A stretch of 64,000 nucleotides of DNA. Source: Terriglobia bacterium. Lineage in GTDB: Bacteria; Acidobacteriota; Terriglobia; Bryobacterales; Bryobacteraceae. The position numbers and the translations under genes are program-made. Under the pieces are notes generated by a model that saw only the letters and a program-made list of their open reading frames with translations, had not been told where the DNA came from and ran no database searches. Below, piece by piece: positions 59,438-64,000 of this stretch (its first letter is position 1; every line of letters starts with the position of its first letter). The stretch is from NCBI GenBank assembly GCA_020073145.1, contig JAIQFS010000001.1:310001-374000 (forward strand). Direction: 5' to 3'.

Positions 59438-59866
59438 CTAACGAGTGACTTTGAGCGTCAAGCTCTCTGTGGCGCTGTGTCCGGCGTCATCTTCCGCCAC
59501 CAGCTTGAACTGGGTGCTCTGCCGCGGCGCAACCTCCCAGCAATAGCTCAACGCCGGGTACAGTTTCTTCACCGGCGGCTCGAGGCGTACCCGTTTGGCG
59601 TTCACCACGCTGTAGCAGAGGCGCGTCCGTTCTCCCGCCCGAAGGACGCTCGGCATCGCGTAGAAGTTCAGAATCTTGAGGTCCACGCCCCCCATCAACT
59701 CCAGGGCCCGCCGCGCGCTCTCGGCTTCTTTCTCCGCCCGCTGCCGCTCCATCTGCCGCGTGCGATCCCATCGCTCGTAGAACACCCAGCCGTCATACAG
59801 CAGGGCTGCCAGCAGGACCGTCGAAAGATACGGCAACACGCGCCGGATTTGCGCGGTCGCGCTCAC
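59438..59866 (-). CDS. Membrane-anchored protein with an Ig-like C-terminal domain
   Basis: 142 residues starting at GTG 59866 (SATAQIRRVLPYL), with one membrane helix near 10-30, a short coiled region rich in Arg/Glu (RTRQMERQRAEKEAESARRALEL) and a C-terminal beta domain (LKILNFYAMPSVLRAGERTRLCYSVVNAKRVRLEP, TQFKLVAEDDAGHSATESLTLKV) of the bacterial Ig-like type seen in many acidobacterial envelope proteins. Its start G is the last base of the previous gene's TAG (TAGTG), so the two are coupled. Function unknown. Confidence 0.72.
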   Translation of the reverse strand: MSATAQIRRVLPYLSTVLLAALLYDGWVFYERWDRTRQMERQRAEKEAESARRALELMGGVDLKILNFYAMPSVLRAGERTRLCYSVVNAKRVRLEPPVKKLYPALSYCWEVAPRQSTQFKLVAEDDAGHSATESLTLKVTR

Positions 59867-60651
59867 TATCCCCGCGCCAGCAACGAGCCGTAGCCCTTCA
59901 CTTGCCCGCTCAGCCCCAGCAGACGCACGCTCGCCCAAAATGCGTGCGGCAGGCTTGAAACTACCGGCACCTTGCAGCGCTGCTCCAGCGGAGCCAGAAT
60001 TTCCAGCGTCTTCAGCGCCCCGCAGGAGATCAACAGCGAGTCTGCCTTCGGCACGCTCTCCCGCACCCCGGCGCTGAACGCCTGCAGGCCCTCCCGCGTC
60101 ACCGGCGGCGAGTCTTCAAACCGCTCGATCCCCAGGCCCTTTACCGTCAGCACTTCGAATCCCGATTCCTGCAGAAACACCCGCAGCCGCTCGTTCACCA
60201 CATCGTTGTAGGCCGTGGCCACCGCCACCCGCCGCGCGCCCACGGTCTTGAGCCCTTCCACGATGGCCGTGCTCATGGTGGTCGCGCGCAGGCCCGTCGC
60301 CTTCGTCACGCTGGCCTTCAGCTCTTCGTTGAACGCCGCGCCTTTGTAGAAGGTCAGCGACGTTCCCATGATCGAGATCGCCTGCGCCCCCTGCTTTTTC
60401 AAATCCACCGCTGCCGGAATAATCTTCGGAACCACTTTGTCGTACCCTGCCGGCGTCATCCGCTCCAGGCCCACGCCCTCCGCCAGAAACTTCACTCCGG
60501 CCGGGTACATCAGCTGGGCCTCCGGCGGAACCGGGTAGTTCGCCGGCGGAAAGATCATGCCCAGCACTGGCTCGCGGCCTGCCCCCCAAGCCACGGCCGC
60601 GGCTCCGGCACTGCCGATCTTCAGAAACTGCCGGCGCGAATTCACAATCAT
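59866..60651 (-). CDS. Tat-exported arylmalonate-decarboxylase-like protein (Asp/Glu racemase superfamily)
   Basis: 261 residues with a twin-arginine signal (NSRRQFLKIGSAGAAAVAWGAG). The mature domain closely follows Bordetella arylmalonate decarboxylase: GMIFPPANY, SIMGTSLTFYKGAAF, TTMSTAI, VALATAY-like VAVATAY, NERL, and ISCGALKTLEIL with the catalytic Cys210, whereas true racemases have two Cys. The Gly of MGTS sits where a Gly-to-Cys change gives racemase activity. Substrate here is unknown; location in the periplasm is inferred from the signal. GGGAG lies 6 nt before the ATG. Confidence 0.85.
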   Translation of the reverse strand: MIVNSRRQFLKIGSAGAAAVAWGAGREPVLGMIFPPANYPVPPEAQLMYPAGVKFLAEGVGLERMTPAGYDKVVPKIIPAAVDLKKQGAQAISIMGTSLTFYKGAAFNEELKASVTKATGLRATTMSTAIVEGLKTVGARRVAVATAYNDVVNERLRVFLQESGFEVLTVKGLGIERFEDSPPVTREGLQAFSAGVRESVPKADSLLISCGALKTLEILAPLEQRCKVPVVSSLPHAFWASVRLLGLSGQVKGYGSLLARG

Positions 60652-60849
60652 AGAGGGCTCCCCCTCACAGCAGTATAGACCCTTCGCGGGGCAGGCCATC
60701 GGTGTTAAGAGATAGGTTGTGGTGACGGGAAGAACGGCTTCACCCCAGTACAGAGCCCCGAAGCGCGCTGTGTTCCGCAGCTCCGGTGCCCTCGATTTGA
60801 CGGGATCCTCTCCAAAGGTGATCCAGCGCGCAGCAGAACGAGGACAGGT

Positions 60850-61386
60850 TTGGAGTGGACATTTTCTGAAGATAAACTGATCCATACCTGCCTTTAACTT
60901 GGTGCTCGTGAGTGTCGGAAAATGGGACCGCAGCTAAGACTCAGCACCGATGAGGAAGGATGCGCGGGGCCCCTGAGTGCCGATGCATTACCGGCATCAC
61001 GACCGGCGGAGCCAACATCTAAATCGGGGTTGCAGCTTCCACCGATCCCTTGCGGCTCCATCGGGCAGATTTCGGCCAGCGCCTCCGGCAACGGGCGCAT
61101 CGGTGGCCGGAAGGTGACCATGGAGAGAATTGCAGGGTTCCTGACAAATCCATTCACCGGCGTCGATCGTCCGGTGCTGGATCGGACTGGCCTTGCTGGA
61201 ACGTTTGACTTTAGCCTGGAATGGTCCCCGGAAAACGCCCTTACCGCACCGCCCGATCAAGCTCCAGCCGTCGGACCTGACTTTTTCGAGGCCCTGCGAA
61301 GCCAGTTGGGCCTCAAACTGGTGGCGACGACTGCGCCAAGTGATACGCTCATCCTCGATAGTATTCAACGTCCCGATGAGAACTGA
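60850..61386 (+). pseudogene. Decayed TIGR03435-family gene
   Basis: The open frame at 60922-61386 (to TGA 61384-61386) encodes the family's middle and end: GGRKVTMERIAGFLTN, DRPVLDRTGLAGTFDFSLEW, FEALRSQLGLKLVATTAP and DSIQRPDEN. Upstream, matching pieces lie in other frames: EDRFGVDIF at about 60850 followed by stops, then IPAFNLVLVSVGK at 60884-60922 in a frame shifted by one or two bases. No signal peptide or N-terminal half is found. At least two frameshifts and stops make it a pseudogene; the start coordinate is approximate. Confidence 0.75.
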
Positions 61387-61440: not shown

Positions 61441-62178
61441 TTATTCCCGTTGGGCGCGAACTTCGGCGGCCACAACCAGAGGGTTCACAGTTCGGGCGTT
61501 GCGATAGGTGCGTAGCAGGACCGGATGCGGGAATCCAGCGGCTTGAAACTCCTGGAGGAAGCCGCCCGCTTCCTTGGCCCCGGCGATTCAGGCGAACCAA
61601 TTCGATTCGCTCTGGCGCTGATCCGGCGACAACGGCTCCCGCAGGATCAACTCGGCGGCATAAACCGCTCCGCCAGGCCTCACCACGCGGCCGAGTTCGC
61701 GAAAAATGGCCGCTCGGTCGGGATTCAGGTTGAAGATGCCATTGACCAGCGCGACATCAATAGAGCCATCGGGTAGGGGGAGTCTTTCCGCATCAGCCCG
61801 GCAGAACCAGACCTGTTCCGCTCCGGATTCAAACCTAGCCTGGCGCGCGCGCTCCAGCATGCTGGCACTAAAATCCATCCCCACAACGTGTCCCGCCCCA
61901 CCGGCTCGATCCGCAGCAATCAGGGAATCCAAGCCCGCGCCGCATCCCAGATCCAATACCCTCGCGCCGCCGGCGATCTCCGCAAAAACTGATACATTGG
62001 ACACACCCGTAAATGCCTCGACGGAGATGGCCGGGGCGCGGTTGAGGATCTCGGCTGAGTAGCCCACCGCTTCCGCAAAAGCGCGGCCTACCGGAAACGG
62101 GTGCGGGCCGTCCGGATGTGCCGCTGCATCCGAATAGGCGGCATTTACATTCCGCCGAAGCTCCACCGCCTGCGTCAC
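61441..62178 (-). CDS. ArsM-like SAM methyltransferase, candidate selenoprotein (in-frame TGA = Sec197)
   Basis: A class I methyltransferase of the arsenite-methyltransferase group: motif I LDLGCGAGLDSLIAA, FCRADAERLPLPDGSIDVALVNGIFNL, VLRPGG-like VVRPGG. The frame meets TGA at 61590-61588 in NWFA-TGA-IAGAKE, where ArsM-like proteins have Cys (WxxC followed by V/I-AGA). After it the same frame runs 48 codons to TAA 61443-61441 with family-typical sequence (GGFLQEFQAAGF, RTYRNARTVNP, VVAAEVRA), so the TGA looks coding. A SECIS-like hairpin follows. Start GTG 62178 is preferred; TTG 62187 has no room for a Shine-Dalgarno. Total 245 residues with Sec. Confidence 0.72.
61556..61574 (-). other. 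SECIS-like hairpin after the methyltransferase TGA
   Basis: On the mRNA, AGGAAGC (61574-61568), loop GGGCG, GCTTCCT (61562-61556): a perfect 7-bp stem starting 13 nt after the UGA, apical loop 20 nt after it, loop beginning with G. This fits the general bacterial SECIS layout (a stem-loop a short distance downstream of UGA with a G near the start of the apical loop, as in E. coli fdhF). Confidence 0.6.
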
Positions 62179-62313: not shown

Positions 62314-63759
62314 ATGGAGCCGGAACGCTGGAAGCAACTCGAAGAACTCTTTCACGCGGCGCTCGACCGCGATGAGCACGAACGCGCCGCTTTTCTCGAC
62401 CAGGTCTGCGCAGGAGAGCCGGGATTGCGGCGCGAACTCGAGTTACTCCTGGCACATGAAGCCCACCGGACGGGAAGTCTGATACCGGCCGGGAAGAGTG
62501 AGGCCGCGGAGCCCCCGCTGGCCCTGGATAAGGCTCTCGAGTCGGGAAAAACCGTATCCCATTACCGCGTCCTGGAAAAAATCGGGGGTGGCGGGATGGG
62601 CGTCGTCTACAAGGCCGAGGACACGAAGCTCGGCCGTCTGGTGGCGCTAAAATTCCTGCCCGATCAGCTCGCCCGGCAGCGCGAAGCCGTCTCGCGGTTC
62701 CAGCGGGAAGCCCGTGCCGCCTCCGCTCTCAACCACCCGCACATCTGTATCATCCACGACATCGAGAACCACGGCCCCCATCCGTTCATCGTCATGGAAC
62801 TGCTGGAAGGCAAGACTCTCAAGCATGCCATCTCTGGAAAACCCCTGGCAGTGGCGCAGATTCTGGAAATGGGCATTCAGATCGCCGACGCTCTCGAGAC
62901 CGCCCACCGGAAAGGCATCATCCATCGGGACATCAAGCCCGCCAACGTTTTCCTTACCGAGCGCGGACAGATCAAGATCCTGGATTTCGGTCTGGCCAAG
63001 CTGAGCGCAGCCGCCGGCGCCGAGGCAGCCGCCAAAACGGCCGAAGTGCATCCCGCGGAATCCGGAACCGCCGCTACCTTGGACGATACGCTCACCCGCC
63101 CTGGCCTGGCCATCGGAACCGTCGCTTACATGTCGCCTGAGCAAGCCAAAGGCGAGGAGTTGGACGCGCGCACCGACCTGTTTTCTTTTGGCGCCGTGCT
63201 CTATGAGATGGCGACCGGGAAGAAGGCCTTCGCTAGCGGAAACACCGCCGTCGCCTTCCGCGCCATCCTCCAGGACACGCCCGACTCCCCCCGCACCCTG
63301 AATCCGGCGATCCCCGCGCGGCTGGAAGAAGTCATTCTGAAAGCCCTCGAGAAGGACCGCGACGTTCGCTACCAGAGCGCCTCCGATATGCGGGTCGACC
63401 TGAAGCGCCTGCAGCGCGCGGAGGACTCGGCGCAGGCCACCACGACGCAGGCTGCTGCGCGCGCGCCGCAGCGCCGCCTCCCTTGGTGGAACGGCGCCGC
63501 CTTGGCCGCCGGTCTCGGCATCGCTGGCATCGTGGGAGTCCGGCTGGGTTGGTTCGGCATGCCGGGCGCAAAGCCATTTCCCGAACCCGCCACCCAGCAG
63601 ATCACCTTCAATCCCACCGAGCAGCCGGTTTTTCTGTCGGCCATTTCGCCCGATGGCAAGTACCTCGCCTACGGCGACTCGGGCGGCATCCACTTGCGCC
63701 AGACCGCCACCGGCGAAACCCACCTCCTGCCCGTGCCGCCGGGCTTCTGCTTTCATTGA
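62314..63759 (+). CDS. Ser/Thr protein kinase, interrupted before its TolB/WD40-like propeller
   Basis: 481 codons to an in-frame TGA (63757-63759). The N-terminal 75 residues are a helical region ([28 protein letters not shown]) of the sort found in acidobacterial kinases. The kinase domain follows: [14 protein letters not shown] at 90-103, Lys113 in [14 protein letters not shown] at 204-211, DFG at 224-226, then [27 protein letters not shown] membrane helix (about 393-412) leads to the start of a beta-propeller ([16 protein letters not shown]). The frame continues past the TGA with propeller sequence to the window end, so the full gene is broken, or the TGA is read through. Confidence 0.85.
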
Positions 63760-64000
63760 CCAAGCCTCGCCTGGTTCCAGGATGGAACCAAACTGCTGGC
63801 CAGTGGACCGGCCGAAGCTTCGCTCGGCATCTGGTCAGTCTCGGTCGTAGGTGCAGAGTCCCGCAAGCTGCGCGACGATGCCTGGCTGGCGACGCCCTCC
63901 CCGGATGGTTCGAAGATAGCCTACTTATCTCCAGATTACCGGGAGCTCTGGTTGATGAATTCCTATGGCCAGGACGCCCGCCGTCTCCAGGTCATTGCCG
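63760..64000 (+). pseudogene. Continuation of the kinase beta-propeller downstream of the in-frame TGA (partial)
   Basis: In the kinase frame the sequence after the TGA reads PSLAWFQDGTKLLASG, LGIWSVSVVGAESRKLRDDAW, ATPSPDGSKIAYLS and runs open to the end of the window. These are propeller blades (WFxDGTKLL, SPDGxxIAY) that belong to the same protein. So the reading frame is intact apart from the TGA, and the gene is either a recent nonsense allele or is decoded at this TGA. Confidence 0.7.
63772..63790 (+). other. Hairpin after the in-frame TGA of the kinase gene
   Basis: TGGTTCC (63772-63778), loop AGGAT, GGAACCA (63784-63790): a perfect 7-bp stem starting 12 nt after the TGA. The stem overlaps codons for the conserved WFxDGT propeller motif, which favours this palindrome by chance, so its meaning is uncertain. 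Confidence 0.35.

Follow-up and report, generated by a model that had tools for sequence, protein, structure and literature searches.

A predicted selenocysteine-containing relative of arsenite methyltransferases with a reduced active site, and a probable second selenoprotein beside it, in a Terriglobia bacterium

The closest described relatives of the gene analysed here are the arsenite methyltransferases of the ArsM type. In CmArsM, as set out in PMC3877260, arsenite is bound by three cysteines, methylarsenite by two and dimethylarsenite by one, and the C174A and C224A variants are inactive, the former on both arsenite and methylarsenite. An ArsM survey (PMC5552862, in excerpt) applied the criterion of at least three of four conserved cysteines, at residues 44, 72, 174 and 224. 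Selenocysteine (Sec) forms are also on record: Table 1 of a 2026 review (PMC13188914), citing Fomenko et al. 2007, names a Sec arsenite methyltransferase with the motif UxxG, and the excerpted part of the same review lists three multi-Sec ArsM-like families.

The window, by which we mean the whole 64,000-nucleotide stretch of DNA that was analysed, carries on its minus strand a gene whose product is placed by Pfam and NCBIfam models among the class I SAM methyltransferases, nearest ArsM, with the SAM-binding motif present. Its three best models are NF041537 (ArsM/AhpD), NF041536 (ArsM/DUF2284) and NF047649 (methyltransferase/UXPK-star), selenoprotein families that reportedly go back to work by Haft and Tolstoy in 2025. 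All 30 subfamily members scanned match these ArsM-like selenoprotein models at E 1e-20 or better. However, the models are longer (283-459 positions) and their names refer to two-domain proteins with several Sec residues, whereas the window protein is a single domain of ~245 residues with one predicted Sec. ArsM-like selenoproteins are already known, and the window protein falls below the NCBIfam cut-offs, with 185 against 510 bits for NF041537, of which it covers only profile positions 13-224 of 345, 163 against 460 bits for NF047649, and 154 against 575 bits for NF041536. Below, we discuss the features that probably define it as an ArsM-fold SAM methyltransferase in which UGA 197 would be read as Sec through SelB, tRNA-Sec and a SECIS element, and which would act on a soft substrate needing one ligand. 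The features of the locus are collected in Table 1.

Table 1. Positions of the features of the locus within the window
Feature	Position	Strand	Remarks
C-terminal piece of a TIGR03435 family protein	60922..61386	+	matches positions 142-241 of a 241-position profile; outside the system
Predicted selenoprotein methyltransferase, coding sequence	61441..62178	-	245 aa; GTG start 62178-62176, TAA stop 61443-61441
SECIS-like hairpin of the methyltransferase gene	61556..61574	-	7-bp stem, loop GGGCG; loop begins 20 nt after UGA
TGA read as selenocysteine 197	61588..61590	-	aligned with Cys224 of CmArsM
Ser/Thr kinase with C-terminal beta-propeller	62314..64000, continuing past the window end to L056:10302	+	996-codon frame, TGA at codon 482
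In-frame TGA of the kinase gene, probable second selenocysteine codon	63757..63759	+	motif CFHU
SECIS-like hairpin of the kinase gene	63772..63790	+	TGGTTCCA-GGA-TGGAACCA

The reduced active site and its relatives

The subfamily comprises 34 members, the window protein included: a search of 150 family genomes gave 24, in 23 genomes, while six come from named contigs and four from a phylum-wide search. Labels on the named contigs read Acidobacteriaceae, Terriglobia, Chloroflexi (two), Proteobacteria and Magnetocorallium, the last of which a taxonomy look-up places in Nitrospirota. Among the 33 other members, 29 are 52-82% identical to the window protein and the remaining four 58-64%; a paralogue in the same genome, at 82% identity, carries the same TGA. 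All counts exclude G029, a broken copy with one TGA and two TAG codons, as well as L023, which covers residues 6-101 only, and L024, which is 28% identical.

The fold predicted from a seven-row alignment (pLDDT 88.9, pTM 0.89) has CrArsM as its closest structural match, with Z 25.1 and 2.0 Å over 202 residues. Its likeness to CmArsM, CrArsM and AS3MT extends to the SAM motif and to a chalcogen at position 224, whereas Val, Gly and Sec in the window protein replace Cys72, Cys174 and Cys224; in a profile alignment, V59, G147 and U197 fall on CmArsM 72, 174 and 224. These three positions are so occupied in 30 of 30 members, and Gly stands at the Cys174 position in all 34, including four later members of group A. 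When Sec proteins are aligned with ordinary ArsM, both partner cysteines are missing wherever Sec stands (35 of 35 proteins) and in none of 20 ordinary ArsM proteins: the former (30 from group A and five from group B) all have V or I, G and U, whereas the latter, from the same family and taken from ~118 stop-free matches listed, have Cys at the equivalents of CmArsM 72, 174 and 224 without exception. In group D, which consists of eight further Sec proteins found elsewhere in the phylum, in other families, Gly stands at the second place throughout, and the one group D member that was aligned has Thr at the first.

The reduced site also occurs with cysteine. Cys occupies the Sec site in five of five Cys proteins examined, namely L124 in genome G154 and four proteins on Chelatococcus and haloarchaeal plasmids, the latter being the four compared out of 58 plasmid records matched. 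These plasmid proteins, annotated as methyltransferase domain-containing proteins, have the V/G/chalcogen site in four of four and are 37-40% identical to the window protein; they differ from it in having Cys for Sec and, in the haloarchaea, in their neighbours, which are OsmC, CMD and DUF1059. On contig C123 of G154, two reduced-site methyltransferases, L122 with Sec and L124 with Cys, lie ~1.2 kb apart, and the Cys version extends into a further, apparently membrane-associated part. In the tree, the 34 rows of group A form one clade (100/100), and the reduced-site proteins are split from three-cysteine ArsM at 100/99, in an analysis whose bootstrap is not fully settled and which leaves out the four plasmid proteins. 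A FastTree calculation that includes those four places all 52 reduced-site proteins on one side of a branch with modest support (0.81); its group A split reads 0.52, a value to be read with the caution that re-rooting may have displaced the support labels.

Set against the cysteine criterion of the ArsM survey, the window protein has V, G and U at 72, 174 and 224, the positions tested, in a comparison without residue 44. Like the Sec arsenite methyltransferase listed in the excerpt of PMC13188914, it is of the ArsM type and would have its Sec in U-x-x-G (UIAG in the window), but it differs in scoring 150 bits against the 263-bit cut-off of the ArsM model NF008823 and in lacking equivalents of Cys174 and Cys72. 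The tested positions speak against the ArsM label, though the enzyme may work in a related way. The excerpted parts of PMC13188914, PMC9312934, PMC5552862, PMC3877260, PMC8938466 and PMC12013277 contain no statement of this pattern of Sec with lost cysteines; Haft and Tolstoy 2025 fell outside the scope of the comparison. The pattern suggests that selenoproteins named 'arsenite methyltransferase' may include enzymes with a different, one-ligand chemistry.

Candidate substrates and gene neighbourhoods

In the mechanism we propose, the genome's own SelB and tRNA-Sec would decode UGA codon 197 with the help of an in-frame SECIS hairpin just downstream, and Sec197 would, by homology, lie near the SAM methyl donor as Cys224 does in ArsM. 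Because the equivalents of Cys72 and Cys174 are absent, we infer a substrate held by one selenium atom and not by three sulfurs. A bound soft atom that needs one chalcogen ligand would then take the methyl group of SAM, and candidate substrates would include dimethylated arsenic, a selenol or thiol, or another organometalloid. It is rather doubtful that the substrate is arsenic in any form. The preliminary description had proposed a selenocysteine enzyme acting on arsenic; the selenocysteine part has held up, and the arsenic part is not established, two partner cysteines being missing.

The gene neighbourhoods were surveyed by scanning 82 of 124 neighbouring ORFs, which are mechanical calls, some of them spurious, from loci of which a few end at contig edges. 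Only a nucleoside phosphorylase was matched in more than three members. This phosphorylase, PNP_UDP_1, stands beside the Sec gene in either gene order, as at L069, L064, L071, L075, L076, L070, L074 and others. In the window itself, a protein encoded at 59866-60885 on the minus strand scores above the NCBIfam arylmalonate decarboxylase cut-off (270 against 225 bits).

A role in redox metabolism or detoxification is conceivable, if on balance improbable. The enzyme would here methylate an oxidised or electrophile-derived thiol, a selenol or a peroxide product, alongside enzymes of the OsmC or AhpD type. Consistent with this, the Cys counterparts with the V/G/chalcogen site directly follow an OsmC gene in three of three haloarchaeal plasmids (L150, L151 and L152), with an AhpD-like CMD protein upstream in one and DUF1059 in two, and the NCBIfam model nearest to the window protein is an ArsM/AhpD fusion selenoprotein. 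However, neither OsmC nor AhpD is found among the 25 most frequent of the 85 neighbour families, which come mostly from neighbours of the Sec subfamily, and on the Chelatococcus plasmid neither type of gene lies beside the Cys methyltransferase.

We regard it as unlikely that the window protein methylates arsenite or methylarsenite as a genuine ArsM does, with the higher reactivity of a single Sec compensating for the two missing cysteines and glutathione or some other small thiol perhaps serving as a further ligand. The fold and the best NCBIfam matches are of the ArsM type, the excerpt of PMC13188914 lists a Sec form with the motif UxxG, and an ArsR-type regulator domain is present in two of the 82 neighbour ORFs scanned. 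Against these points, CmArsM with C174A is inactive (PMC3877260, in excerpt), and it is at this very position that every member has Gly. The genome moreover has other ArsM genes, at least two of them of the ordinary three-cysteine type (own32 and own18), and no arsenic pump or reductase appears among the 25 most frequent of the 85 neighbour Pfam families in the 82 ORFs.

A nucleoside-linked function receives a similarly low probability. Either the phosphorylase would clear a nucleoside by-product of methylation, or the two proteins would act jointly on an arseno-, seleno- or thio-nucleoside. In 9 of 30 loci, no more than ~0.8 kb separates PNP_UDP_1 from the Sec gene, and in seven of these the two are on the same strand and within ~132 nt. 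They also co-occur by genome: full-length matches are found in 14 of 23 carrier genomes and 16 of 127 others (p = 2e-6), or, by genus, in 8 of 14 against 12 of 62 (p = 0.007), both values being uncorrected for relatedness. When three partial matches are counted as present, the comparison becomes 14 of 23 against 19 of 127. The genome of the window, however, has no such phosphorylase at E 1e-30, and no ArsM-like gene was found in 20 stretches where the phosphorylase stands away from a Sec gene. A literature search combining arsenosugars and nucleoside phosphorylase gave no useful lead. The phosphorylase and OsmC contexts are two hints that point in different directions.

Selenocysteine decoding of the in-frame TGA

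The decoding of the TGA as selenocysteine, which the preliminary description had proposed, is now well supported by the Sec machinery, the fixed TGA, purifying selection and a SECIS-like stem. The frame from 62178 to 61441 contains this single TGA, at codon 197, and gives 245 residues when it is read as Sec. The strand had earlier gone unmentioned; re-reading the minus strand gives the 48 codons past the in-frame TGA and the closing TAA that had been described, and the context NWFA-TGA-IAGA matches exactly. The paralogue has ATG at the place of the GTG at 62178, which makes this GTG the likelier start codon. The mechanical ORF under table 11 has 199 aa; this table ends such genes at the TGA, so they are easily mistaken for truncated genes.

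All four components of the Sec machinery that had been proposed as a check are found in the genome (6.3 Mb, completeness 100): tRNA-Sec at 74.2 bits, above the Rfam cut-off and with anticodon TCA, SelB at 351.9 bits, SelA at 488.4 bits and SelD at 355.9 bits, the last with an in-frame TGA of its own (L088, G000:C68). SelB is present in 20 of the 23 genomes that carry the Sec methyltransferase and was not found in the other three, G003, G018 and, by elimination, G137, which are assemblies of 530-610 contigs. Since SelB occurs in 129 of the 150 family genomes anyway, its co-occurrence with carriers cannot discriminate.

The alignment of homologues that had been suggested earlier gives a clear picture: where 20 of 20 ordinary ArsM proteins have Cys, the TGA is fixed in 34 of 34 subfamily members. 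Of 30 tails measured after Sec, 24 have 47 residues and six have 48-53. Between the window gene and its paralogue, dN and dS (NG86) are 0.106 and 0.305 before the TGA and 0.050 and 0.474 after it; selection downstream of the TGA is purifying. The main alternative of the preliminary description, a Cys codon turned into a stop by mutation in a dying gene next to a decayed one (which is the TIGR03435 piece of Table 1 and does fit a truncated gene), has practically no probability left and is already refuted because the same TGA is conserved across the subfamily, in all 33 other members found, with the purifying selection after it and the Sec machinery of the genome also standing against it.

Several observations bear on the hairpin. 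Firstly, the perfect 7-bp stem (AGGAAGC/GCTTCCT) with a 5-nt loop, GGGCG, starting 13 nt past the TGA, is present as had been described. The excerpt of PMC13188914 gives as bSECIS constraints a hairpin 16-37 nt after the UGA and a G within the first two loop positions, and the window hairpin agrees with both in its spacing and its loop G. Secondly, a stem of at least 6 bp within ~38 nt of the TGA is found in 26 of 30 members, compared with a mean of 14.4 and a maximum of 22 in 1000 synonymous shuffles, and the mean stem of 7.0, against 5.6 in the shuffles, is reached by none of the 1000; a perfect 6-bp stem is absent in the other four members. Individually, most stems are unremarkable for the peptide encoded, and the stem of the window gene is equalled in 0.656 of shuffles. 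All 30 members encode the Lys or Arg at the base of the stem by AAG, AGG or CGG. Finally, in nine of nine members with a 4-nt-loop register, codons +6 and +9 pair through their wobble bases, as A-T, G-C, T-A, C-G and G-T. These nine were chosen for pairing in that register; in terms of codons, they are the members that have Ala at +7 and lack Gly at +9. The window gene and its paralogue, the other two with Ala at codon +7, pair in a 5-nt-loop register. Permutation of the wobble pairing gives 297 of 200000, a figure conditional on the choice of members with the 4-nt-loop register. The folding energy of the entire span after the TGA has a mean z of -0.44 relative to synonymous shuffles and lies below zero in 19 of 30 members. 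The informative test is that of stem length against synonymous shuffles; the folding-energy z-scores are weak. The covariance-model check proposed earlier turned out negative: with Rfam there was no SECIS match, and the sole match up to E 10 was a miRNA family at E 9.8.

The divergent kinase gene

The start of the methyltransferase gene lies ~135 bp from that of a Ser/Thr kinase gene on the opposite strand, which is probably a second selenoprotein gene and possibly an undescribed one. The kinase gene seems to end at 63759, at a TGA that is the only one in its frame of 996 codons. A search of the 150 family genomes gave 36 matches to its region, and 30 of these matches were aligned. Eight of the 30, from eight genomes, have the TGA, all in the motif CF(H/Q/R)U, and the other 22 lack the Cys as well as the TGA; together with five further matches from the phylum that lack both, no Cys form occurs among 27 other homologues. 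In the seven TGA-containing genes whose 3' end lies inside a contig, the frame runs on for ~500 residues past the TGA. An identical 8-bp hairpin follows the kinase TGA in five of the eight, and identical residues are encoded by identical codons in 66 of 91 cases after the TGA, compared with 4486 of 10306 elsewhere. The mean stem is 7.25 against 4.96 in synonymous shuffles, none of 1000 of which reach it. One of the eight, in G117, has no such stem, and in G017 the longest stem lies elsewhere; the folding-energy z-scores range from -1.5 to 0.6.

In the excerpts of PMC13188914 and of the deep-Sep paper, 'kinase' refers to tRNA-Sec kinase only, and the latter excerpt lists a SelO-like protein. 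A literature search returned no Sec-containing protein kinase among the matches listed. SelO is a known selenoprotein with a kinase-like fold and belongs to another family than the window kinase. If the kinase is truly a selenoprotein, its family, in which no Cys form was seen, would escape searches that rely on Cys/Sec pairs; if confirmed, it would bring selenocysteine into transmembrane signalling.

In our reading of its sequence, the kinase protein would have a membrane segment and an outward-facing propeller. By eye, one of the eight, in G038 (L185), has a CxxU propeller on a winged-helix DNA-binding domain and a membrane segment, which there replace the kinase; this suggests a sensor module used with different outputs. 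A joint role for the two predicted selenoprotein genes is a speculative and rather improbable extension: a class of methyltransferases with a single chalcogen and a substrate other than arsenite would stand beside a receptor kinase whose CxxU propeller, with no Cys form seen, senses redox state or metalloids, and soft-element or redox stress could be perceived by the kinase and countered by the methyltransferase. Among the loci compared, the genome of the window alone has the two genes side by side; in G032 they lie ~57 kb apart.
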